Source of the DNA: Ruegeria sp. HKCCD8929
GTDB lineage: Bacteria; Pseudomonadota; Alphaproteobacteria; Rhodobacterales; Rhodobacteraceae
DNA length: 64,000 nucleotides
Assembly (NCBI RefSeq): GCF_013031405.1
Contig: NZ_WPZY01000012.1
Coordinates: 62,001-126,000, forward strand
Reading direction: 5' to 3'
The notes below the pieces were generated by a model that was given only the letters and a program-made list of their open reading frames with translations, had not been told where the DNA came from and ran no database searches. A program made the translations under genes and the position numbers. This document shows positions 6,083 to 26,993 of the stretch, in pieces. The first letter of the stretch is position 1; every line of letters starts with the position of its first letter.

Positions 6083-6421
6083 ATGTACGGGATCAACGCC
6101 ACCTCTGGCCGGATGCTCGGCGGGATCGACCATCTGCGCCAATCCATCCGGGATATTCTGACAACGCCGATCGGGTCGCGGGTCATGCGGCGCGACTATG
6201 GCGCGCGCCTTTTCGACCTGATCGACGCGCCGTATTCCTCGGCCACCAAGCTCGCGATCATCGCCGCCACGGCCGAGGCGATCATGACATGGGAACCCCG
6301 CATCGAGGTCGAAAATGTCACCCTTCGCACCTTTGAGCCCGGGCATGTGATCATCGACCTGACGGGCCGGTATCTGCCGGATGGGCGCGAGGTCTCGATC
6401 GAGGGGATCGAAATCGCATGA
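6083..6421 (+). CDS. Baseplate assembly protein W (GPW/gp25 family)
   Basis: A 112-residue wedge protein of the contractile-tail baseplate. The family signature is clear: an N-terminal segment with LRQSIRDILTTPIGSRVMRR followed by DYGARLFDLIDAP. The C-terminus has the VIIDLTGRYLPDGREV strand. It overlaps the J gene by 4 bases (ATGA). Two other ATGs lie just upstream, but 6083 gives the expected length. Confidence 0.92.
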   Translation: MYGINATSGRMLGGIDHLRQSIRDILTTPIGSRVMRRDYGARLFDLIDAPYSSATKLAIIAATAEAIMTWEPRIEVENVTLRTFEPGHVIIDLTGRYLPDGREVSIEGIEIA

Positions 6422-7320
6422 GCGCCTTTACCGCCATCAATCTCGACAAGCTGCCCTCGCCGCAGATCATCGAGCGCAAGGCGTTTGAGCCCATCCTTGC
6501 GGAACTCAAAGCCTGGTTGATCGCCCGCGAGCCCGGTCTTGCCCCGGTGCTGGAGCTGGAAAGCGAGCCGATCACCAAGGTTCTCGAGGCATGGGCCTAC
6601 CGCGAAACACTCCTACGCGCCGAGGTGGACGATGCCGGGCGCGGCAATATGCTGGCCTTTGCAGGCGGCGCACAGCTTGACCATCTGGGCACCTTCTACG
6701 GTGTCGAGCGCGCCGTCATTCAGGCCGCAGATCTGGGTGCCGTGCCGCCGGTTCAGGCTGTTGTCGAAGATGACACACGGTTCCGCCAACGGGTGCAACT
6801 GGCCCTGGAAGGGTTCACCACGGCGGGCTCGCGCGGGTCTTACGTGTTCTGGGGGTTGTCGGCCTCGCCGCTGGTCAAGGATATCGCCATCGAATCTCCG
6901 GTGCCGGGCCAGGTTTTGACAACGGTTCTTTCCGCCACCGGCGACGGTGCACCCGACGCTGCCCTGCTGGATGCCGTCACGGCGCAGCTCAACGATGAAG
7001 ACGTACGCCCGCTGACGGATCAGGTTGTGGTGCAGGCGGCGACTATCATCCCCTATGCGGTAGAGACCACGCTGACGCTCTACGAAGGGCCGGACGGGGA
7101 GGTGGTGCGGCAAGCGGCGGAAGCGGCCGCACAGGCCTATGTCGAGGATCACCACCGCCTCGGGCATGACATCACTGTATCGGGGCTGCACGCGGCCCTG
7201 CATCAGGCCGGTGTGCAGAACGTGGCTCTGACCAGCCCGGCCGCTGACATCGTGGTTGCGACATCCGAGGCGGCCTACTGCAGCTCGGTCACCGTGACGA
7301 TCGGGGGTCGCTATGTCTGA
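6418..7320 (+). CDS. Baseplate assembly protein J
   Basis: A 300-residue gp47/J-family protein that builds the outer baseplate wedge. The N-terminal LPSPQIIERKAFEPILAELK pattern, the central LAFAGGAQLDHLGTFYGVER motif, and FTTAGSRGSYVFWGLSASP are typical of the family. It overlaps the W gene before it and the I gene after it, in the conserved order W-J-I. Confidence 0.93.
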   Translation: MSAFTAINLDKLPSPQIIERKAFEPILAELKAWLIAREPGLAPVLELESEPITKVLEAWAYRETLLRAEVDDAGRGNMLAFAGGAQLDHLGTFYGVERAVIQAADLGAVPPVQAVVEDDTRFRQRVQLALEGFTTAGSRGSYVFWGLSASPLVKDIAIESPVPGQVLTTVLSATGDGAPDAALLDAVTAQLNDEDVRPLTDQVVVQAATIIPYAVETTLTLYEGPDGEVVRQAAEAAAQAYVEDHHRLGHDITVSGLHAALHQAGVQNVALTSPAADIVVATSEAAYCSSVTVTIGGRYV

Positions 7321-7885
7321 ACTGCCCACACTCCTGCCGCCAAATGCACAGCCGGTCGAGTATGAGCTTGAGCAGTTCTCCGCACGGCATCAGGATTTTG
7401 CCGCACCGATCCGGGTGCTTTGGAGCCCGGAAGACTGCCCTGCGCACATGCTGCCGTGGCTGGCATGGGCATTCTCGGTCGATGATTGGGACCCCGACTG
7501 GCCCGAAGAAACCAAGCGCAGCGCGGTTGCCGCCTCGATCGCCATCCATCGCCGCAAGGGCACCAACGGCGCCGTGCGCAATGCACTGGCCGCCTTTGGC
7601 TATGGCGCGGCGGCCATTGTCGAGGGCTATGGCGCATTCACCTACAACGGCGATCTGACCCATGACGGCTCGGAAGACTATGGTGAGCCGGATCATTGGG
7701 CCGAGTATCGCGTTTATCTCGAACGCCCGATCACCATCGATCAGGCGGACCAGCTCCGGCGCATCCTTGAGAATGTCGCCCCCGAGCGCTGCCACCTGAA
7801 GGGGCTCTATTTCTCCGAAGCCGCCCACCGCTACAATGGCGCCATCACTTATGACGGCGCGTTCACCTATGGAGCTGTCACGTGA
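7313..7885 (+). CDS. Tail protein I
   Basis: A 190-residue P2 gpI-type protein that joins the baseplate to the tail fibre. It shows the LPWLAWAFSVDDWDPDW motif near residue 43 and KGTNGAVRNALAAFGYGA, both characteristic of the family. The C-terminal residues (AITYDGAFTYG) are strand repeats that probably contact the fibre. Coupled to J and to the fibre gene by short overlaps. Confidence 0.92.
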   Translation: MSELPTLLPPNAQPVEYELEQFSARHQDFAAPIRVLWSPEDCPAHMLPWLAWAFSVDDWDPDWPEETKRSAVAASIAIHRRKGTNGAVRNALAAFGYGAAAIVEGYGAFTYNGDLTHDGSEDYGEPDHWAEYRVYLERPITIDQADQLRRILENVAPERCHLKGLYFSEAAHRYNGAITYDGAFTYGAVT

Positions 7886-8847: not shown

Positions 8848-9462
8848 ATGACGATCAAGATCGAGGTATCGCTCGAGTTTCAGGCTACCGCCGCCCGCCT
8901 GCTACGCGAGGCAGGGTTCGCGCTGGACAGGATCGTGGGCAACGAGGTGTTTCTGACCGAGGGTGTCGCGGCCGAAGCCTACGCTGCCCTTGCAGACCTG
9001 CAAGCCGAGGCCGCCAGGGACGAACTGGCACAGGCCAAGGCGGACGCGCTGGGCGTGGCCCGACAGATCGCCGTTGATGTGCGCCAGCAGATCGCAGGGG
9101 CAGCAACGGTGCACCGGGCTTTGGCGTGGGCCGTCAAGATGCCCTACGCCATGGTCTGGGCCGCGCATGAGGCTGAGGGCGATCCCGATGGACCCTTTGC
9201 GCCCTTCGCCGCCGTGGCCGAGGCCGGGTTCCGGATCGAGGCGGATGTGACCGGCGAGACCGCCGTCGCGATCCGGGATCGGGCGATCGAGAAGAACCGC
9301 ATGTTCTTCCAGGCCACCCAGCTTGTCGAAGGCATGGAGCGGCTGGCCGAGGATCGCATCCCGGCCGCTGCGGATGCGGCCGGGTTGCAGGCCGCGATCG
9401 CCGAGCTACAGACGCTCGAGGCGGCCGCCATGGACCAACTCGCCACGATCACCACAAGCTGA
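8848..9462 (+). CDS. Hypothetical protein after tail fibre, possible fibre assembly factor
   Basis: A 204-residue, strongly helical, Ala/Glu-rich protein 9 bases downstream of the fibre gene. This slot often encodes a fibre assembly chaperone, but no chaperone motif is recognised. Residues 50-130 are predicted helices with coiled-coil-like spacing. It is the last gene before a cargo insertion. Confidence 0.6.
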   Translation: MTIKIEVSLEFQATAARLLREAGFALDRIVGNEVFLTEGVAAEAYAALADLQAEAARDELAQAKADALGVARQIAVDVRQQIAGAATVHRALAWAVKMPYAMVWAAHEAEGDPDGPFAPFAAVAEAGFRIEADVTGETAVAIRDRAIEKNRMFFQATQLVEGMERLAEDRIPAAADAAGLQAAIAELQTLEAAAMDQLATITTS

Positions 9463-9649
9463 CATGTGCCGCCCTGGATTTGAGGATCTGACGCCAATAG
9501 GGAAAAGGAGCCCATTGCTGCCGTTGCTCCAATTTCACGAGTTCGCAAACGAGGCATGATCGTTCGGCCCAATCCCGCGTTATCTCTAGACTTCACTGCC
9601 GAACAGAGCGGTATTCTCACTTCCACGGGAATCCGAAACGAGTGCGTTG

Positions 9650-10114
9650 CTATTCGAAATCGACTTTGACGCCTGCCATGCGAAAGATTTCGTTTGCGTA
9701 GAGGTAGTGCGACTTCCATTTTCTATCCCGCTCGGTGTCGCCCCCGAGGCTTGGCACCACTAGGCGTTTGATACCTGCTGCGACAATTGCTCGGGCGCAG
9801 TCCGCACAAGGATACAGTGAAGCATACATTGTTGTGCCGTGTAACGCCGCGCCCTTCGCAAGTGCCGAGCTAATGGCATTCCGCTCCGCGTGTTCCAGCA
9901 TGAAGTATTTCCAATCTGGATCGCCCTCGATAGCCCGCAGGCTATCGGATTGTGACAACCCTAAAGGATTGGGGGGGGCGTTTACACCCTCTGACAATAT
10001 CCGTCCATTGGCATCGACGATGACCGCGCCGACTTGACGGTGGGGATCGTGGCTGAACTCGTGGAGTTCGTTGCACCGTCGCAAAAAGTCGCTGTCAAGT
10101 TTCATCAGTTCCAT
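9650..10114 (-). CDS. dCMP/cytidine deaminase-family protein (cargo)
   Basis: A 154-residue zinc deaminase with both metal motifs intact: HAE at residues 75-77 (His ligand and catalytic Glu) and PCADC at 102-106 (two Cys ligands). Such enzymes convert dCMP to dUMP or act on related cytosine nucleotides. It is transcribed against the late genes and divergently from the dCTP-deaminase-like gene, 48 bases away. Base composition differs from the flanking tail genes. It may feed dUMP production for the phage or belong to a nucleotide-based defence pair; the sequence does not decide. A start at codon 4 is also possible. Confidence 0.85.
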   Translation of the reverse strand: MELMKLDSDFLRRCNELHEFSHDPHRQVGAVIVDANGRILSEGVNAPPNPLGLSQSDSLRAIEGDPDWKYFMLEHAERNAISSALAKGAALHGTTMYASLYPCADCARAIVAAGIKRLVVPSLGGDTERDRKWKSHYLYANEIFRMAGVKVDFE

Positions 10115-10162
10115 GGCATATCGTTCGGAATAAGGAAGTCGAAGTTACTTTGAGAGGACCAA

Positions 10163-10954
10163 ATGACGCTACTTGCGGGAAAAGAACTCGATAAAATGAA
10201 GTTCTTTCGAGAGGGTAACCCAAAAAAGCGCGCATCCAGCTTTGACCTCACGGTTGGCAGCATCTTCAACGATGAGGGACAAGAGATCGCCGGTCCATAC
10301 AACCTGCAACCTAATGAGATGGTTCAGGTGACTTCCGCTGAGGTCTTTGGCCTTCCCGCTGACATTACCGCGCACGTATCCTACAAAACCAGCATGACGC
10401 ACAAGGGTATTTGGGCCTTAACCGTTGGTGTCGTGGACCCGGGTTGGAATTGCCCAGTCTCCACTACCCTATTCAACTTCAGCAAGGTTCCCTTTGCGAT
10501 CAGCAAGGGCGACGTGTTTTTGCGGGTTTCGCTCTTCAAGCATTCGCCAGTGTCGGAGCTCCAAGAGGGGCCTACCATTGAAGACTATGAAAAGGGAGTT
10601 CAGAAGACCGCCATGACGACCTTTGGGCGTCAGTTCTTGAATGCCGACAAGGTGGCTGAGAAGGCGGGAGAAGTTGCGATGGAAAAGATGCGCAATTCTG
10701 CGCTCACTTGGGTGGGTCTGGCTGCGCTTATTTTTGCGCTTCTGCAACTCGCTGTATCTTGGGTCTCGCCCGCTGTATTCGACGGCAGGCAGGCGACCTC
10801 GCAGTTGAGGGAAGAAATAGTTGAACTAAAGGCGCAGGTCGCGTCCCTCGCTGACAAGGTTCAAATCACAGAGGCTGCTTCGTCGGCAGGTGAAACGGCG
10901 CCGTTAGACAACGCAACTGATCCCGACGATACCAAGTCTGAGCCCACCAAGTGA
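10163..10954 (+). CDS. dCTP-deaminase/dUTPase-fold protein with membrane anchor and coiled coil
   Basis: A 263-residue protein in three parts. Residues 1-130 match the trimeric dCTP deaminase/dUTPase fold, with VVDPGWNCPV and FNFSKVPFAISKGDVF. A helical stretch follows, then a membrane helix at about 181-203 and a coiled coil (REEIVELKAQVASLADKVQ) with an acidic tail. Aligned by eye to E. coli Dcd, the catalytic Glu138 position falls on Thr102 and the RSS motif reads YKTS, so deamination is doubtful. The dUTPase-type Asp in VVDPG remains. The domain may sense nucleotides at the membrane. Its divergent partner is a deaminase. Ribosome binding is by GAGAGG, 9 bases before ATG. Confidence 0.75.
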   Translation: MTLLAGKELDKMKFFREGNPKKRASSFDLTVGSIFNDEGQEIAGPYNLQPNEMVQVTSAEVFGLPADITAHVSYKTSMTHKGIWALTVGVVDPGWNCPVSTTLFNFSKVPFAISKGDVFLRVSLFKHSPVSELQEGPTIEDYEKGVQKTAMTTFGRQFLNADKVAEKAGEVAMEKMRNSALTWVGLAALIFALLQLAVSWVSPAVFDGRQATSQLREEIVELKAQVASLADKVQITEAASSAGETAPLDNATDPDDTKSEPTK

Positions 10955-11293
10955 AATGGCGGCATCCGCCGATGTAGGCTTGCGTTGGATCACAAATGCT
11001 CTGGTAGCCCGTAAACTCCCTCGGTGGAGCTGAGCAGCCCTACATGAGTGGTCCAGATTGAAAATTAGTGTATGATTGGCCTTTGGTCCATCGGTACGAT
11101 TACTTCAGGCGCTGGTGGGCGGCAGCCCAGTGCACGGTGGTGTCGTTTGGTGTTGCAAGCTTCGCATTTGCAGCAGGCTTTTTTGTATTCAGCGAACGGC
11201 AGCTGGTGACCCCCACGGGGGAACCGCCAGAGGAAAGGCGGGGCGCGAGGTGCAACTTTCTGACCAGGAACAACATCCGAGCACGAGGTCAGA
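10955..11293. other. Right flank of the deaminase cargo block
   Basis: 339 bases with no convincing gene. A small GGCGG-CAT-CCGCC hairpin lies just after the preceding stop and could be a weak terminator. The 18-base motif is at 11218-11235. A frame across 11068-11532 overlaps the sheath gene out of frame and is not credible. Confidence 0.5.
11218..11235 (+). repeat. 18-base prophage motif, copy 3
   Basis: GGGGAACCGCCAGAGGAA, 58 bases before the tail sheath start and downstream of the deaminase cargo pair. Identical to copy 1 over all 18 bases. Confidence 0.85.
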
Positions 11294-12481
11294 ATGCCCG
11301 CATCCTTCCTTCATGGCGTCGAGGTCATCGAGATCGACGCAGGCCCCCGTCCGATTCAGACGGTCAAATCCTCGGTCATCGGCATCGTGGGCACTGCGCC
11401 CGATGCGGATGCCGCCAGATTCCCGCTGAACACCCCGGTTCTGGTCGCAGGCTCGCGCCTCGAGGCGGCGGGGCTGGATACCGTCGGCAACAGCGCCGGC
11501 TCGCTGCCGGGCGCGATGGACGGCATCTTTGACCAGATCGGCGCTGTGGTGGTGGTTGTCCGGGTCGATGAGGGCGTAGACGAAACCGCCACGCTGGCCA
11601 ATGTGGTTGGCGGCGTGAACGCAGGCACCGGCAATTTCGAGGGTGTGCACGCGCTGCTCGGCGCCGAGAGCGTGGTCGGGTTCTCGCCGCGCATCCTGAT
11701 CGCACCGGGGTATACCCATCAGCGCCCCGGCGATCTGGCAAACCCGGTTGTGGCTGAGCTGCAGGGCATCGCCGAGCGGCTGCGCGCCGTGGTGATCGCC
11801 GACGGGCCCAACACCACCGACGACGCGGCCCAGACGGCCGCCGGCGATTTTGGTTCGGACCGCATCTACCTGCACGATCCCTGGTTCAAGGTGCAGGTGG
11901 GCGCGAACATCGTCGACCAGCCCCCCTCAGCCCGCATTGCGGGGATCATAGCCAGGACCGACAACGAGATCGGGTTCTGGGCGTCGCCTTCGAACAAGCT
12001 GGTGAACGGCATCATCGGCACCGCGCGCCCGGTCGATTTCAAGCTGGGCGATGCCAATGCGCGCGCTAACCTGCTCAATGAGAACAAGGTCGCGACCACG
12101 ATCCGGCAGAACGGCTACCGGCTCTGGGGCAACCGCTCGCTGACCGCCGACACCAAGTGGCATTTCCTTTGCGTGCGCCGCACGGCGGATATCATCAACG
12201 ACTCGCTCTTGCGCGCGCATCTCTGGGCCGTCGATCGCAGTATTACCAAGACCTATGTCGAGGACGTCACCGAAGGCGTGAACGCCTATCTGCGCGACCT
12301 GGTGGCGCTGGGCGCGATCCTCGGCGGCAAGTGCTGGGCCGATCCCGATCTGAATTCGGCGGCCAACATCCAGCTCGGCAAGATATTCTTCAACTTCGAT
12401 TTCACACCGGTCTATCCGGCCGAGCACATCACCTTCCGTTCGCATCTGGTGAACGACTACATTCAGGAGGTTTTTAACTGA
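11294..12481 (+). CDS. Contractile tail sheath protein
   Basis: A 395-residue sheath protein (P2 FI family). Its start MPASFLHGVEVIEIDAGPRP with TVKSSVIGIVGTAPDA is the family hallmark, as are FSPRILIAPGYTHQ and the C-terminal NFDFTPVYPAEHITF segment that weaves neighbouring subunits together. Full length, no disruption seen. The stop overlaps the tube gene start. Confidence 0.95.
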   Translation: MPASFLHGVEVIEIDAGPRPIQTVKSSVIGIVGTAPDADAARFPLNTPVLVAGSRLEAAGLDTVGNSAGSLPGAMDGIFDQIGAVVVVVRVDEGVDETATLANVVGGVNAGTGNFEGVHALLGAESVVGFSPRILIAPGYTHQRPGDLANPVVAELQGIAERLRAVVIADGPNTTDDAAQTAAGDFGSDRIYLHDPWFKVQVGANIVDQPPSARIAGIIARTDNEIGFWASPSNKLVNGIIGTARPVDFKLGDANARANLLNENKVATTIRQNGYRLWGNRSLTADTKWHFLCVRRTADIINDSLLRAHLWAVDRSITKTYVEDVTEGVNAYLRDLVALGAILGGKCWADPDLNSAANIQLGKIFFNFDFTPVYPAEHITFRSHLVNDYIQEVFN

Positions 12482-17238: not shown

Positions 17239-18465
17239 TCAGACTGTACGCACGTCCGCCATAAATGCTTCCACCGTCAGTACGTGGTTTCGGATATTCT
17301 TAGAGTATTTGCTAATTTGACCTTCTGGCACAACAAGGCGGATACCGGCATCCGTTATCAGCTTAAACTGCGCCTCTGACACACCTTCTTGCAATGTCAG
17401 CAAATGACGCGTCGGCAGATCGGCGCATTCCTCGGTGACTTGCCGCCACCGGTCACGTAACGTCGTTTTCACTGCCAGCATGCGTACCCGCTGACGCGGG
17501 TACGCACTATCCAGATAGGCAGTCTCGTTTGGGAATAGAAAATCGGGATTGTTCCCAGCCTTTGGTTGGTAGGTGAAGTCCCGGTTTTCCTGAAACGCCT
17601 CTTCGATCAGGATTTCCCGCATATGCAATTCAAGCGACTTGCCAGAACGGGCTTTGCGACGTTGCAGGACAGTCTGCGCAGCGGCAAGGAAGTCGGAAAT
17701 AGTGGTGAACCCCGCTTGGGCACGAGGAAGCTCCACAGCTTCTTCCAGCGATTGAAAAAGCTCGAACTCGCAATCCCGACGGCGCAGCAAGCGCTTGTCC
17801 ACCGCCAGTTCATTGTCGGGCCGCAATTCGATGACTTTTTGAATTATCTCAGCGCCACTAGGAAACTTTGTAAGCCACTCCGGTGGTAGCTCTTGCCGTG
17901 CCAATCGACAATCTGCCCGGACTGCGGATTGCAGAAGCGCCAGAAAACCGCCATCGGGCGGCCATGTTGTCCAGCGACCTGGCTCGACGGGGCCGGTCTC
18001 GCGCTCGACCACGTCTTCTTCAACTTCATTCCGGCAAATCCAAACGTTGCAGGTTTCGGCGTCGCCGTTTTCGCCGAATCTGAACGCAAATACTGCGAGT
18101 GCCCCGGTACTCTCTGGATCAAGTATTGCTGAAGAGGCACCGCCGAAATTCGTAAGTCGCGTCTCGTCGCGAGGGCGCTTGGGTTTAGGAACCTTCCAGT
18201 ATTTGTTGTTGTACCACGTTGCCGTAACTCGTCTGACATCCGGGTGGGAATCGACACTAAGCTCAATTTCGGCCTTTGCATTGGCGTGCGTGTGTTTCTC
18301 GAGCGAAGGAAAAAGCCGAAAGAACACTCTCTTGGGAACATATGGTCCGGCCTGATGAGATCCATTAGCCAGTGTGTCGTTGCCGGAAAGACGCTTCACA
18401 TACCAAAAACAGCCCTCTGAGTGTTCGTCCAACCAGTCCGCCAAATCCATATTACTGCCCCTCAA
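17239..18465 (-). CDS. EcoRII-family type II restriction endonuclease
   Basis: A 408-residue endonuclease. The N-terminal ~170 residues resemble the EcoRII B3-like DNA-binding domain (WYVKRLSGNDTLANGSHQAG). The C-terminal domain has the EcoRII catalytic core: LELHMREILIEEAF, NPDFLFPNETAYLDS, and MLAVKTTLRDRWRQVTEECA with HLLTLQEGVSEAQF. The PD...(E)xK-type residues appear intact. EcoRII-group enzymes cut at CCNGG/CCWGG-type sites. The gene overlaps the vsr gene by 4 bases and is last in a methyltransferase-Vsr-endonuclease operon, so methylation is expressed first. Base composition is lower in GC than the phage genes. Confidence 0.88.
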   Translation of the reverse strand: MRGSNMDLADWLDEHSEGCFWYVKRLSGNDTLANGSHQAGPYVPKRVFFRLFPSLEKHTHANAKAEIELSVDSHPDVRRVTATWYNNKYWKVPKPKRPRDETRLTNFGGASSAILDPESTGALAVFAFRFGENGDAETCNVWICRNEVEEDVVERETGPVEPGRWTTWPPDGGFLALLQSAVRADCRLARQELPPEWLTKFPSGAEIIQKVIELRPDNELAVDKRLLRRRDCEFELFQSLEEAVELPRAQAGFTTISDFLAAAQTVLQRRKARSGKSLELHMREILIEEAFQENRDFTYQPKAGNNPDFLFPNETAYLDSAYPRQRVRMLAVKTTLRDRWRQVTEECADLPTRHLLTLQEGVSEAQFKLITDAGIRLVVPEGQISKYSKNIRNHVLTVEAFMADVRTV

Positions 18466-18920
18466 TCAAACTCGCCGGCAATCTCGCCCGTTTCTGCGCC
18501 GGACGCGAGCCACTCTTCGATTCTGTCTAAAGCCGTGGGTAGATCAAGACGCCCTTTACCCACAAGCGCACATTCCCACACGACAAATTGCCGCCAGTCC
18601 GACGCCAGAAGTGCAGCGGTTACTTCTTTATCGCGCTCAGCATTGCGAGCCAGCTTCGCTCGCCAGAATTCCGCATTGTCACCGCCGGGTTGCTTGAACC
18701 GCGGGCAATCGTGCTTGTGCCAAAAACAGCCGTGAACGAATACCGCTGCCCGGTATTTTCTCATCGCCAGATCGGGTTTCCCTGGAAGGGACGTATTTAG
18801 TCGGAACCGATAGCCCGCGCGATGCAGAACTGAACGCAACAGCCTTTCAGGCTTCGTGTCCCTCCCTCTGATAGCCGCCATATTGCGGCTGCGTGTTTCC
18901 CGGTCATGAACGTCTGTCAA
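18462..18920 (-). CDS. vsr: Very short patch repair endonuclease Vsr
   Basis: A 152-residue Vsr-family nickase that cuts beside T:G mismatches produced when 5-methylcytosine deaminates. Key motifs are an N-terminal RSRNMAAIRGRDTKPE, the catalytic Asp in PGKPDLAMRKYRAAVFVHGC and the zinc-site HGCFWHKHDC. Full length. It overlaps the methyltransferase and endonuclease genes by 4 bases each, typical of an R-M system that repairs its own mutagenic by-products. Confidence 0.93.
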   Translation of the reverse strand: MTDVHDRETRSRNMAAIRGRDTKPERLLRSVLHRAGYRFRLNTSLPGKPDLAMRKYRAAVFVHGCFWHKHDCPRFKQPGGDNAEFWRAKLARNAERDKEVTAALLASDWRQFVVWECALVGKGRLDLPTALDRIEEWLASGAETGEIAGEFD

Positions 18921-20179
18921 GCGTCCCCAAGCGCCTCCCGCGCAGACTCGGTCACGCTTGCAACCTCTGCGATGTGAGGCAGCATCAACTGCGCCACATC
19001 TGTCGCTACGGGAGCGACAACGGCGTTGCCAAACTGCTTGTAGGCCTGCGTATCCGAAACTTTGATCTTAAACTTGCTTTCACCCGGCTTGTCGAATCCC
19101 ATCAATCGTGCGCACTCACGTGGCGTGAGGCGACGGGGTGAGCCGCTGGGGCGGCGGATCAAGATTTCAGAGCCATCCTTGTAGTACCGTGCAGAGAGGG
19201 TTCTGGCCACGTCTTCAGGGCTGTTCAGTCCAAATCCGAAACCGTTGCCAGCCGCCCGGTGCTTTTCAGCATACCGTTGTAGGTAGTTCCACAAGTGTTG
19301 GGTCAAAACATACTTGTCCGACACTTTCGCCTTCGGGCCGGTCGTGAAATGCCCTTCGGCTTTTTCTGTTCCGTCTTCCGGATGCAGAATGGTGGACAGT
19401 TTGGGCCCGCTCAATGGGTCACGATCCTTTAAGGATTGCAGGCTGAAGCCCTTGATGCCACGTTCGCGCGGGAATCCTACAATGAAAATGCGCTGGCGGT
19501 GCTGCGGCACCCACGACTTGGCGTCAAGGATCATTGGGAAGATGTCGTATTTTAGTTCCTCTTCCAGTGTATGTCGGATCACACGAAAGGTGCGTCCCTT
19601 GTCGTGGTTCGCGAGATTACGAACATTTTCCAACAGGATGGCTCTCGGGCGGTGGTGTTCGACGATACGCGCCACATCAAAGAACAGATTACCTTGATCT
19701 TCACATGCAAACCCGTGAGGGCGCTTCAAGGCATTTTTTTTTGACACACCAGCGATGGAAAACGGCTGACAAGGGAATCCCGCCAACAAGACTTCGTGCT
19801 GTGGAATGTCAGTTTCGCTGACTTCGGTAATGTCGCCCGCAATTTCGTCGTCGGTTTCACCGTAGTTTTGCGAATAGGTTATGCGGGCGTACTTGTCCCA
19901 CTCTGAGGTGAAGACGCATTCACCACCAACGCCGGTTTCCATGTCGAATGCGCGGCGCAAACCGCCGATTCCGGCAAATAGGTCAATGAACCGGAAAGAA
20001 GGTTCGCCAGCAGGTTTTTTCGGTGCAAGTTGGGCAGCAAGTAGTTTCTCAATTTCGGCAGGCTTTGGACCACCCTTGCCTTCTTCCCAGTTGTAGACGG
20101 TTCGGTTTGGACGACCAAGAAGCCCCGCGACTTCAGGGACACTCAGGCCTGTTTGTTCGCGAATCTCGGTGAAGTTCAT
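18917..20179 (-). CDS. DNA (cytosine-5) methyltransferase with N-terminal HTH
   Basis: A 420-residue C5-cytosine methyltransferase. All main motifs are present: I (DLFAGIGGLRRAFD), IV with catalytic Cys (GFPCQPFSIAG), VI (ENVRNL), VIII (QHRQRIFIVGF) and X (QFGNAVVAPVA). The first ~55 residues form a helix-turn-helix (VPEVAGLLGRPNRTVYNWEE), as in M.EcoRII/M.SsoII relatives whose N-terminus represses their own operon. Paired with an EcoRII-like nuclease and Vsr, the target is probably CCWGG-like (inferred). First gene of the operon. Confidence 0.93.
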   Translation of the reverse strand: MNFTEIREQTGLSVPEVAGLLGRPNRTVYNWEEGKGGPKPAEIEKLLAAQLAPKKPAGEPSFRFIDLFAGIGGLRRAFDMETGVGGECVFTSEWDKYARITYSQNYGETDDEIAGDITEVSETDIPQHEVLLAGFPCQPFSIAGVSKKNALKRPHGFACEDQGNLFFDVARIVEHHRPRAILLENVRNLANHDKGRTFRVIRHTLEEELKYDIFPMILDAKSWVPQHRQRIFIVGFPRERGIKGFSLQSLKDRDPLSGPKLSTILHPEDGTEKAEGHFTTGPKAKVSDKYVLTQHLWNYLQRYAEKHRAAGNGFGFGLNSPEDVARTLSARYYKDGSEILIRRPSGSPRRLTPRECARLMGFDKPGESKFKIKVSDTQAYKQFGNAVVAPVATDVAQLMLPHIAEVASVTESAREALGDA

Positions 20180-20716: not shown

Positions 20717-21922
20717 TCAGCTTCGCCCCCGCAACGGGATTACTTTAGCCTCTGAGCCCGTGACGAATTCCGCCCATTTCTGCATGAGGATGTGCCGCTT
20801 ATCCAGCAGATCTGAGCGGGCATATGATCGCTCGACTTTGTTGCCGATCACATGCGCAAGCGCAGTTTCCGCGACATCGTAGCTGGCGGCGTCGGTGTCC
20901 TGCACCCATGAGCGAAACGAAGTGCGGAACCCATGCGGGCGGCCTTTCTCTCCCAATTTTCCAAGTATTTTTATCTGAGCCTGAACCGTGATGCAGCCCT
21001 TTCTTGGACTCGGAAAGAGGTGGTCGGAAACCGCATCGGCCTTACACTCTTCAAGCAACCGTAGGGCCTCGTCTGATAGGGGAACACGGAAGTCGGAAAC
21101 CTTGCCGCGCTGTCCCTTCATTCGATCTGCCGGGATAGTCCACACATCCCCGTCAAATTCATCGAAGCGGGCGCCGCGCACACCGTCACCTCGTGCGGCT
21201 GTAAGGATCGCCCAACGAAGCGACCGATGAACCGGTGTGGGTTTGTGCAACCTGGCGTATAGATCCGGGATATCCTGCCATGGTGTGGCAACGATAGGTG
21301 TGACAACTTGATCATAGTGCCCGAGCATGTGTCGGGCGGCATCAACCGTGAAAGGGTCGACCTCGTATCCCATCAGCTTCGCTTGATGGAATATCTTTCT
21401 TGTCCGATACAGCGCCTTATCGGCTGTCTCGTGTTTGGTTTTCCAGATAGGTGCTATGGCATCGCGGATGTCTGTCTGATGAATTTCGGAAAGACGTTTG
21501 CGCCCGATTTTCGGTATCACATGCACTTTGACCGGTGAGAGCCATCGTCCTCTTGTGCCATCACCTCGGAGACCGCCCCGGATGGCTTCAAATACCGCTA
21601 CGGCCATGTCTTCGAACAAGGGATCATCCTTGGCCAGTTGTGTCAGTTCATCGGCGCGCACACGCTCGCGCTCGCTGATCGGATCTTTGCCGCCTTGCAG
21701 AATGTGCTGCCAATAACCCCGCTGTTTGCGGGCCTCTGCCAGTGATACCTCGGGGTAGCTGCCCAGACCCATTTCCCGCCGCCGCTTTGCGAATGAGTAG
21801 CGGTATATCCACTTTCCGCCGGCACCTTTTTTGGTCAATCGGAGCCCGCCGCCGTCTTCGAGCTTCCCGTCTGGCGCATTCTTTATCGCCACCGCCGTTA
21901 GTTTGTTGATGCCGCCTGCCAT
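20717..21922 (-). CDS. Tyrosine-type phage integrase (DUF4102 family)
   Basis: A 401-residue integrase with an N-terminal arm-binding domain (KLEDGGGLRLTKKGAGGKWI), a central SAM-like core, and a catalytic domain. The catalytic box includes ILTAARGDGVRGARFDEF (first Arg), HGFRTSFRSWVQD (HxxR) and the nucleophile Tyr in NKVERSYARSDLLDKR. This P4-type family inserts elements into chromosomal sites, often tRNA genes. It faces inward from the right end of the prophage and is apparently intact, so excision might still be possible. Confidence 0.94.
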   Translation of the reverse strand: MAGGINKLTAVAIKNAPDGKLEDGGGLRLTKKGAGGKWIYRYSFAKRRREMGLGSYPEVSLAEARKQRGYWQHILQGGKDPISERERVRADELTQLAKDDPLFEDMAVAVFEAIRGGLRGDGTRGRWLSPVKVHVIPKIGRKRLSEIHQTDIRDAIAPIWKTKHETADKALYRTRKIFHQAKLMGYEVDPFTVDAARHMLGHYDQVVTPIVATPWQDIPDLYARLHKPTPVHRSLRWAILTAARGDGVRGARFDEFDGDVWTIPADRMKGQRGKVSDFRVPLSDEALRLLEECKADAVSDHLFPSPRKGCITVQAQIKILGKLGEKGRPHGFRTSFRSWVQDTDAASYDVAETALAHVIGNKVERSYARSDLLDKRHILMQKWAEFVTGSEAKVIPLRGRS

Positions 21923-25307: not shown

Positions 25308-26180
25308 TCAGGCCTCATGAGCAAAAGCACGGGGGGTCTGGAGTAGTGTTTGTCTCTGTTCGGGCGTGAACGTGTCGGACAGGGCCTCGATCAGGTCCAG
25401 GACTGCCTGAACCTCATTCTCAGTCTGTGCCGCGCGCATCTGCTCGACAAAGTACGTTTCAAGTGTGCTGAGGGGTTTGTGGTCCCGGTTTGCCGGGCTC
25501 ATTTGGGTTACGTCCACCTGTGCGGGGGCGTTTCTGCTCTCAAATAATTCCAATGCTTCGTTCTCGTCCAAGAATACGTCGTGGGTGATGCCTGCAAATT
25601 CACGGACCCGGTTGATGCGTTCCTCGCTGCAATCCAGCAGCGCGGCCAAGGCGTTCACCTTGCCCATGGGCACCTCGTTGCCCACGTAATCGTAGGGCGC
25701 GTTGTTCGAGCGCTTCAGCACCCGATTCATCACTGGGTCGATGACCGTAATGATGTCTTTGATACCGGCGCTGCGTGCGAATTCGAGCGAGCCGATCATG
25801 AGTTCGCAAGTGGCGTAGGATACCGAGTTGCGGTCCTTGCCGCGGTTCAGCCGTTGAGTGTCGACGCAGAACCGGGTGGATTCCCAGACGCTGACGCTGC
25901 GGATCGGTGGTTCTCCACACAGGATATCCGAGAAGACGTCTGACAACATGTGAGGGCCGGTGGTCTGCAAGGCGCGAACCGCTGCGACGACATTCCCCCC
26001 ATCGTCCAGGCTCACGACATATACAGGATCCAGGTGGTCGAACGCGTCGATTTCCTTGCCATCTTCGATCTGAACTTCCCAGCCGAGGCGATCCCCAAAC
26101 ACCCTGGCACGAAGCTCAAACATCTCATCTAAGACACCGCGGAACACATGCTTGTTTAAAGCATCGATAACGATGATCAT
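25308..26180 (-). CDS. luxI: Acyl-homoserine lactone synthase (LuxI family), with C-terminal extension
   Basis: A 290-residue LuxI-type synthase that joins an acyl chain to S-adenosylmethionine to make an acyl-homoserine lactone signal. Conserved residues by eye: Arg24, Phe28, Trp34, Asp45, Asp48, Arg69, Glu100 and Arg103. Family members are usually near 200-230 residues; here about 70 extra residues (roughly 215-290) follow the catalytic domain, rich in Glu/Gln and predicted helical (RDHKPLSTLETYFVEQMRAA). It lies downstream of a luxR gene on the same strand, the classical quorum-sensing arrangement. Confidence 0.92.
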   Translation of the reverse strand: MIIVIDALNKHVFRGVLDEMFELRARVFGDRLGWEVQIEDGKEIDAFDHLDPVYVVSLDDGGNVVAAVRALQTTGPHMLSDVFSDILCGEPPIRSVSVWESTRFCVDTQRLNRGKDRNSVSYATCELMIGSLEFARSAGIKDIITVIDPVMNRVLKRSNNAPYDYVGNEVPMGKVNALAALLDCSEERINRVREFAGITHDVFLDENEALELFESRNAPAQVDVTQMSPANRDHKPLSTLETYFVEQMRAAQTENEVQAVLDLIEALSDTFTPEQRQTLLQTPRAFAHEA

Positions 26181-26228
26181 TTATATTTCCCCCTTCGAGT
26201 GGTTTGTAGTGAGCCAATCGTTACCCAA

Positions 26229-26241
26229 CTCGACGGTCGAG
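26229..26241. promoter_or_regulatory. Palindrome upstream of luxI, possible LuxR operator
   Basis: CTCGAC-G-GTCGAG, a perfect 6-base inverted repeat about 50 bases upstream of the luxI start, in the luxR-luxI gap. It may be a lux-box-like site, but its half-sites differ from the palindrome before luxR. Confidence 0.3.
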
Positions 26242-26291
26242 ACTATTGGGGATTTCCCGTAATTCTGTGATTTTCTGAAGGGAACGTAGGG

Positions 26292-26993
26292 TCAGCCCGG
26301 GAAGATAAGGCCGATTCCAATGGCTCTGCCGACCGCCTGGGGCGTTGTCAGAGCGTTTAGCTTCTCGCGGCTGGAACGCAAGTGCACTTCGACCGTGCGG
26401 TGCGAAATCGACAGAATATCGCCGATATCCTGCTGCGACTTACCTGCTGCAACCCATTGCAATATTTCAACCTCGCGGCTGGACAGGGTCGGGTGGTACA
26501 GGATCTGGTTCAGCGAGTCCGAGGTAATGACCGAGTCGTGGATGTGAACGGCCATGGACTGAAGATCGCCGATCACATGGCTGACGAGCTTCTTCCACTC
26601 TTCCCTCGAGCAATCGCGGGTGGCGCTGAGCAGGCCGACATCCCCGTACGGTCCGCGGACCGGGATGGTGATGCCCTGATCGCCAATGCCAAAGTCGTTG
26701 GCGTCGCGGAACACTTTCTGAAAATCGGGACTGCGCTCAAGCCGGCTCCAATCAACCGGAGCGATCGAACGCTGACTCATGTGAAGCGTCGGGTCGATCA
26801 TCTGGAAACCTTGTTCCTGATAATGGTTCTTCCACCCATCATCATAGGTCACATGTCCATGAATGGACCCGGCCGCCGGGTTCAGCCCGGCATAAGCCGC
26901 ATGGTCCATTTCGAACTTGTCGCACACCTGCTTGAGAAACTCAGTATACTGAGTTTCTGGCTGGGGAAGGGTGCTAAGATCAATGATTTCCAT
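26292..26993 (-). CDS. luxR: LuxR-family quorum-sensing regulator
   Basis: A 233-residue regulator with an N-terminal autoinducer-binding domain (residues about 15-160) and a C-terminal HTH. The binding pocket carries the usual Trp, Tyr, Asp-Pro and Trp positions in WKNHYQEQGFQMIDPTLHMS and PVDWSRL. The HTH reads LSSREVEILQWVAAGKSQQD followed by IGDILSISHRTVEVHLRSS. It is 111 bases upstream of luxI, same strand, and very likely its cognate regulator. Confidence 0.93.
   Translation of the reverse strand: MEIIDLSTLPQPETQYTEFLKQVCDKFEMDHAAYAGLNPAAGSIHGHVTYDDGWKNHYQEQGFQMIDPTLHMSQRSIAPVDWSRLERSPDFQKVFRDANDFGIGDQGITIPVRGPYGDVGLLSATRDCSREEWKKLVSHVIGDLQSMAVHIHDSVITSDSLNQILYHPTLSSREVEILQWVAAGKSQQDIGDILSISHRTVEVHLRSSREKLNALTTPQAVGRAIGIGLIFPG

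Follow-up and report, generated by a model that had tools for sequence, protein, structure and literature searches.

A divergent deaminase and Glu-less, membrane-anchored DCD-fold protein in a Ruegeria prophage: a candidate nucleotide-sensing anti-phage module

Introduction

What is the role of a deaminase gene that lies, within a prophage, head to head with the gene of a membrane protein built on the dCTP deaminase (DCD) fold? We addressed this question for a gene pair at positions 9650 to 10954 of a 64,000-nt stretch of Ruegeria sp. HKCCD8929 (contig NZ_WPZY01000012.1, positions 62,001-126,000, forward strand), which is referred to as the window. A sequence-only reading had proposed the pair as a candidate defence or nucleotide-sensing system, and this proposal is supported by the conserved pairing, the deaminase motifs, the loss of a catalytic Glu in the partner, and a partial defence context. 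Our preferred reading, to which we assign a probability of roughly 45%, is that the pair is a two-gene anti-phage module, in which the deaminase makes a deoxyuridine (dU) nucleotide and the Glu-less DCD membrane protein senses it and harms or arrests the cell.

Results

The deaminase and the divergent arrangement

Both genes are intact open reading frames (ORFs) transcribed divergently as claimed, and their start codons are separated by a 48-bp intergenic region (10115..10162). The minus-strand ORF (9650..10114) encodes a zinc-dependent CMP/dCMP-type deaminase of 154 aa, which matches Pfam PF00383 (E = 9e-21, 74.1 bits against a cut-off of 25) and the PHROG dCMP deaminase family (phrog_174, E = 1e-30), the nearest solved chain being 7fh4 (E = 1.6e-18). 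The zinc and catalytic motifs, earlier read as whole, are indeed present as H75-A76-E77 (9884..9892, minus strand) and P102-C103-x2-C106 (9797..9811, minus strand), and their named residues are invariant across all 18 aligned sequences. Within the dCMP deaminase family, phage enzymes are described as varying in substrate, one of them taking dCTP > dCDP > dCMP (PMC12697855), so that more than one cytosine deoxynucleotide is possible as the substrate of the window enzyme.

The distance from start codon to start codon is 46-50 bp in all eight close loci, window included, when the aligned deaminase start is used. Comparison of the intergenic region among the close loci revealed no strong conserved operator, and a search of the region found no sigma-70-like site. 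AvcID is a type III toxin-antitoxin system, whose RNA antitoxin is encoded beside the deaminase. Near the window pair, no Rfam family matched at E <= 0.1 within 9400-11400, Rfam coverage of AvcI being unchecked.

The membrane protein has a DCD fold without the catalytic Glu

The plus-strand ORF (10163..10954) encodes a protein of 263 aa, of which residues 1 to about 150 (10163..10612) form the predicted DCD/dUTPase-fold domain. The protein scored above the cut-off of Pfam DCD PF22769 (E = 1.4e-9, 38.7 bits against 27), and its AlphaFold2 model (pLDDT 84.7) retrieved archaeal dUTPases, bifunctional DCD-DUT enzymes, and E. coli Dcd as the top Foldseek matches in the PDB (E = 2e-9 to 1.5e-7), in agreement with the fold originally suggested. 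Glu138 is the catalytic residue of E. coli Dcd. Thr102 of the window protein (10466..10468, plus strand) aligns with this position, which is E in 2j4h and A in the E138A mutant 1xs4; the suspected loss of the catalytic Glu was thereby upheld, and it extends to all 20 aligned partners, window included (T 11, A 6, L 3, E 0). The other equivalences, obtained by counting from this aligned position, are Lys75 for Arg110, Thr76 for Ser111, His80 for Arg115, Val90 for Arg126, and Asp92 for Asp128, the last within the motif VDPGW (Asp92 at 10436..10438, plus strand). All 20 partners have K or R at the Arg110 position and T or S at the Ser111 position, the Asp128 and Asn141 positions are unchanged in 20/20, and Arg115 is retained in just two.

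The window class resembles Dcd and DCD-DUT in its fold and in the kept or conservatively replaced R110, S111, D128, and N141 positions, but differs from them in the missing Glu138, the rarity of Arg115, and an added membrane helix. As judged from this pattern of conservation, the partner appears to retain the residues expected to hold a deoxynucleotide and to have lost the deaminating one, and it should be unable to deaminate since the catalytic Glu is gone. An ordinary Dcd is ruled out by the lost Glu and by the score against the NCBIfam dCTP deaminase equivalog TIGR02274 (44.9 bits, under the cut-off of 92.8). Trimeric dUTPases carry an active-site Asp in motif 3 and a glycine-rich C-terminal motif 5 after the fold. 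The motif 3 Asp is present as D92, invariant in 20/20 partners, and inspection by eye found no GFGSTG-like stretch after residue 150, where a helix and a membrane segment stand instead; motif 5 is visible in a dUTPase-like ORF at another locus, L046.

The membrane helix noted earlier was recovered at residues 180-198 (10700..10756, plus strand), with a hydropathy peak of 2.21 and a helix spanning residues 161-200 in the model. A hydrophobic stretch follows residue 140 in all 20 aligned partners, with a mean hydropathy of at least 1.67 in 19 of them; the lone exception is the truncated L027 protein (1.53). The coiled coil that was also proposed is possible in the window protein, for which the model predicts a long C-terminal helix at residues 209-243 (10787..10891, plus strand), but is absent from the L029, L032, and L035 proteins, which end soon after the membrane helix. 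Proteins that combine this fold with a transmembrane helix are termed DCD-TM below.

The pair recurs across Alphaproteobacteria

A scan of species genomes with one 10-residue DCD-TM alignment pattern matched 72 stretches, 18 of which were confirmed. All 18 loci are from Alphaproteobacteria (Aminobacter, Mesorhizobium, Nitratireductor, Bradyrhizobium, Leisingera, Cochlodiniinecator, Roseovarius, and others), with 26-55% identity to the window partner over the best segment. A deaminase of the same family divergently adjoins the DCD gene in 16 of them; the remaining two are uninformative, since only 85-94 bases separate the start of the DCD gene from a contig edge. Further pairs lie on a megaplasmid of Sinorhizobium meliloti (L010) and in genomes G495, G947, and G1069. 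Altogether, the deaminase stands beside DCD-TM in 21 of the 22 informative subfamily loci, window included, and the anticipated co-occurrence is thus borne out. Loci on the same contig were counted once (L029 is the L003/L011 contig, L038 the L004/L012 contig, L042 lies within L051, and L047 within L055); the loci share descent and hence are not independent. L056 (E = 1.6e-35) is alone in the subfamily in lacking a deaminase although its DNA extends to both sides of the DCD-TM gene; it has a HAD phosphatase gene. At that locus (6153-7634), the DCD-TM gene and the convergent, overlapping phosphatase gene (weak UMPH-1 match) are located in a P2-like prophage between the portal and replication nickase genes.

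Within-family distances of the deaminase and DCD-TM proteins are correlated (Mantel r = 0.83, 20 pairs, 0 of 20000 permutations as high), a result that could also arise from joint descent alone; L039 takes different places in the two trees. Chance pairing is ruled out by the 21 of 22 loci together with this co-variation.

The distribution is rare and patchy. At E <= 1e-8, matches were obtained in 6 of 385 genomes in a sample of the class (two pair loci, three wider DCD-TM loci, and L046, whose dUTPase-like ORF has no membrane helix) and in 5 of 398 in a sample of the phylum (two pair loci, L056, L057, and L058), the window's own genome being included in both counts. At 1e-15, 2 of 292 genomes matched in a sample of the order, and the 16 other genomes listed for the genus gave no match. 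Searches of viral contigs returned one identical prophage contig, two weak DCD relatives (L096 and L097), and one contig identical to L056; one such search gave no match, as did the L056 gene used as a query against E. coli genomes and phages. Twelve phage-collection records had any match, and none covered 80% of the query. The coupling runs one way: the family deaminase occurs in 16 of 96 genomes of the class, and no DCD-TM neighbour was seen at any of the 11 other (non-self) deaminase loci checked, some of them short, four partial ones among 15 having been left out.

A wider class of Glu-less DCD-TM proteins

Seventeen further DCD-TM proteins (L013, L017, L052-L054, L056-L058, L087-L094, and L095) all lack the Glu and have the Asp. 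Their C-terminal hydropathy peaks range from 1.45 to 2.89, those of L052, L089, and L091 being weak (<1.6); soluble Dcd controls kept the Glu in 6/6 cases and peaked at 0.68-1.32. With L051, L055, and the 20 aligned partners, the Glu is lacking in 39/39 DCD-TM proteins. Plasmid records matched by the L057 and L058 proteins are represented by the best 7 of 37 and the best 1 of 3, respectively.

Many of these genes neighbour nucleotide enzymes. Pfam searches identified ThyX (L054), thymidylate synthase (L055 and L088), HMUDK_hel (L057 and L089), MazG_C with uracil-DNA glycosylase (L090), HAD phosphatase (L056), and adenylosuccinate synthetase (L058 and L091), with a deoxynucleoside kinase as well in L058. 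Record annotation places MazG, NTP pyrophosphohydrolase, or uracil-DNA glycosylase genes near DCD-TM in L087, L093, and L094, and no clear nucleotide-enzyme neighbour was seen at L013, L017, L052, L053, and L092. What stays constant at these loci is a DCD pocket that lacks the Glu and is attached to a membrane helix, and the variable part is often, by its family matches, an enzyme predicted to make or alter deoxynucleotides.

Several arrangements are compact. The ThyX gene of L054 (5637-7321) overlaps the DCD-TM gene by 4 bases in the same orientation, and L055 (5506-7780) comprises three genes, namely DCD-TM, a deaminase divergent from it, and a thymidylate-synthase-like gene sharing one base with DCD-TM. 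In L058 (5133-7853) and L091 (2940-5002), an adenylosuccinate synthetase-like gene precedes the Glu-less DCD-TM gene. Both synthetases read GGQFGSEGKGK, in which a Ser stands where PurA has its catalytic Asp; this is reminiscent of PurZ and makes a 2-aminoadenine-type nucleotide possible for them. On plasmid islands (L087-L090, L093, and L094), DCD-TM is found with varying members of a set of thymidylate synthase, HMUDK_hel, MazG_C, uracil-DNA glycosylase, and HTH/ImmA-IrrE/C1-peptidase genes. The DCD-TM partners of L013 (1203-1919) and L057 (6270-6860), which matched no Pfam family, are related to each other (25% identity, E = 1e-13).

The pair is cargo of a P2-like prophage

The pair is an insertion between the tail-fibre end of an operon and the tail sheath gene of a P2-like prophage, and the stretch from the pair to the sheath contains no other clear gene. 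At nine related sheath loci, this place holds no more than 155 bp in eight and could not be resolved in one, and the pair was found within 1.5 kb upstream of the sheath in none, consistent with the cargo slot proposed from the sequence. Defence hotspots of P2-like prophages have been described (PMC9519451), and the pair has the position of such hotspot cargo. An ordinary tail-operon gene is a weakened explanation, as six tail proteins of the window have no match at 1e-8 near other pair loci and the phage-collection matches noted above all fell short of 80% query coverage.

Across the pair loci, the defence and mobile context is partial: no defence or relaxase gene was found in 9 of the 21 pair neighbourhoods. 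For this count, a home-made gene caller supplied 180 ORFs from the neighbourhoods, of which 149 were run against Pfam and PADLOC (best 25 families per search) and 31 judged short or spurious were excluded (17 from L010, L051, and L055); a tblastn context search with 13 query proteins was added, at loci some of which have <6 kb on a side.

The same prophage carries a second defence cargo beside its integrase (20717..21922, minus strand; PF13356 and PF22022), namely an EcoRII-type restriction-modification system (17239-20179) with a restriction endonuclease (17239..18465, minus strand; PF09019, 5e-49; PF09217, 2e-41) and a C5 cytosine DNA methylase with an N-terminal helix-turn-helix (HTH) (18917..20179, minus strand; PF00145, 1.4e-73). 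Beyond the prophage, a LuxI-like synthase and a LuxR-like regulator (25308-26993, minus strand) were recognised by eye only.

Discussion

A constant membrane-anchored DCD pocket that lacks the Glu, combined with a variable deoxynucleotide enzyme, suggests an economical reading, in which the enzyme writes a message and the DCD protein reads it and acts at the membrane; in the window the message would be a dU nucleotide. From these features we infer the substrate, ligand, trimeric state, membrane effect, and anti-phage outcome as follows. The deaminase would convert a cytosine deoxynucleotide, perhaps dCMP (dCDP or dCTP being possible), to the uracil deoxynucleotide. The level of dCMP should go up as the phage degrades host DNA, and phage or host kinases could lift the product to dUTP if needed. 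The DCD-like protein, probably a trimer at the inner membrane, would bind the product or sense an altered balance of dU and deoxycytidine (dC) nucleotides, and the bound state may alter the packing of the membrane helices, so that the cell would be harmed or arrested before phage release. A signalling role has been argued for dUTP bound by dUTPases (PMC12524310).

In its logic, the closest working precedent for such a module is Kongming, whose KomA is a deaminase of the adenosine type and whose KomB adopts the HAM1 fold. KomA and kinases produce the non-canonical deoxynucleotide dITP, the sensor KomB reads it, and the effector KomC depletes NAD (PMC12948488). The logic is alike in that a deoxynucleotide message is read by a sensor. 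However, the window pair has a cytosine-type deaminase, a DCD fold in place of KomB, pocket and membrane part in one protein, and no gene before the sheath that would correspond to KomC; it is not a Kongming system.

It is possible, although rather unlikely, that the deaminase is instead the effector, depleting dC nucleotides on infection, and that DCD-TM binds dCTP, dUTP, or the deaminase itself and restrains it until then. Depletion of dC by a deaminase is a published defence, and AvcID and the anti-phage dCTP deaminases have a zinc deaminase domain, related to that of the window enzyme, that works on dC nucleotides (PMC10511110). The window domain resembles PADLOC dCTPase (4e-21) and NCBIfam NF041025 (anti-phage dCTP deaminase, 1e-18), and tight head-to-head pairing would suit a toxin and its controller. 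Yet the NF041025 match is limited to the deaminase domain (best stretch residues 75-119 only) and reaches 67.5 bits against a cut-off of 400, and the partner is a membrane protein, an anchor that an antitoxin does not need. Elsewhere DCD-TM stands beside thymidylate synthases or a PurA-like enzyme, which would make poor toxins, so that DCD-TM, as the constant part, resembles an output rather than a restraint.

An improbable alternative is a module of nucleotide supply for phage or host, with no defence role, the deaminase giving dUMP for thymidylate synthesis and DCD-TM being a membrane-bound pool regulator or dUTPase. PHROG lists the dCMP deaminases, known as a family of phage proteins, under nucleotide metabolism, and both the family deaminases without a DCD-TM neighbour and the pair neighbourhoods without a defence or relaxase gene agree with this explanation. 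Sensing or handling of phage-made modified pyrimidine nucleotides rather than plain dU, for example conversion of 5-hydroxymethyl-dCMP to hydroxymethyl-dUMP by the deaminase, is more improbable still, for although the HMUDK_hel, MazG_C, thymidylate synthase, and uracil-DNA glycosylase genes near several DCD-TM genes may handle modified or uracil-type pyrimidines, the window pair adjoins no such gene, the L055 thymidylate synthase used as a query matched L055 alone among the loci searched, and sequence cannot reveal ligand specificity.

Beyond the window, we suggest, tentatively and with considerable doubt, that membrane-tethered dead DCD proteins are general immune receptors for non-standard deoxynucleotides. 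Interchangeable enzymes would write the message (dU by dCMP-type deaminases, modified pyrimidines by thymidylate synthases and HMUDK/MazG enzymes, modified purines by a PurZ-like synthetase with a deoxynucleoside kinase), and one receptor-effector fold would read it at the membrane. The class may be partly anticipated, since the predicted, unvalidated defence domains of DefensePredictor (Fig. 6F) include aGPT-Pplase, MazG, MazG-C, and dUTPase, several of its domains being said to have been predicted earlier in Burroughs et al. 2015 (PMC13092281). The accessible portion of the DefensePredictor text describes neither the deaminase/DCD-TM pair nor the Glu loss, and a full-text literature search, thin on subscription papers and bioRxiv preprints, returned no account of the pair. 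Neither this particular pair nor the systematic Glu loss nor the interchangeable partners appear in the searchable literature.

The window pair is directly testable, as it comprises two genes of about 1.3 kb in total with known folds and clear point mutants. A natural trigger may also occur in the same host group. Roseophage DSS3_VP1 has a marine alphaproteobacterium as its host. This phage is among those with dU-DNA (PMC12697855). If the preferred reading of a dU-writing deaminase and a membrane-bound DCD reader is true, the list of immune messages that includes cyclic nucleotides, TIR products, and dITP would grow by the deaminated deoxynucleotides, and the housekeeping DCD/dUTPase fold would count as a receptor by itself. 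Several unexplained operons in which nucleotide enzymes accompany a DCD-like membrane protein would then share a single explanation.
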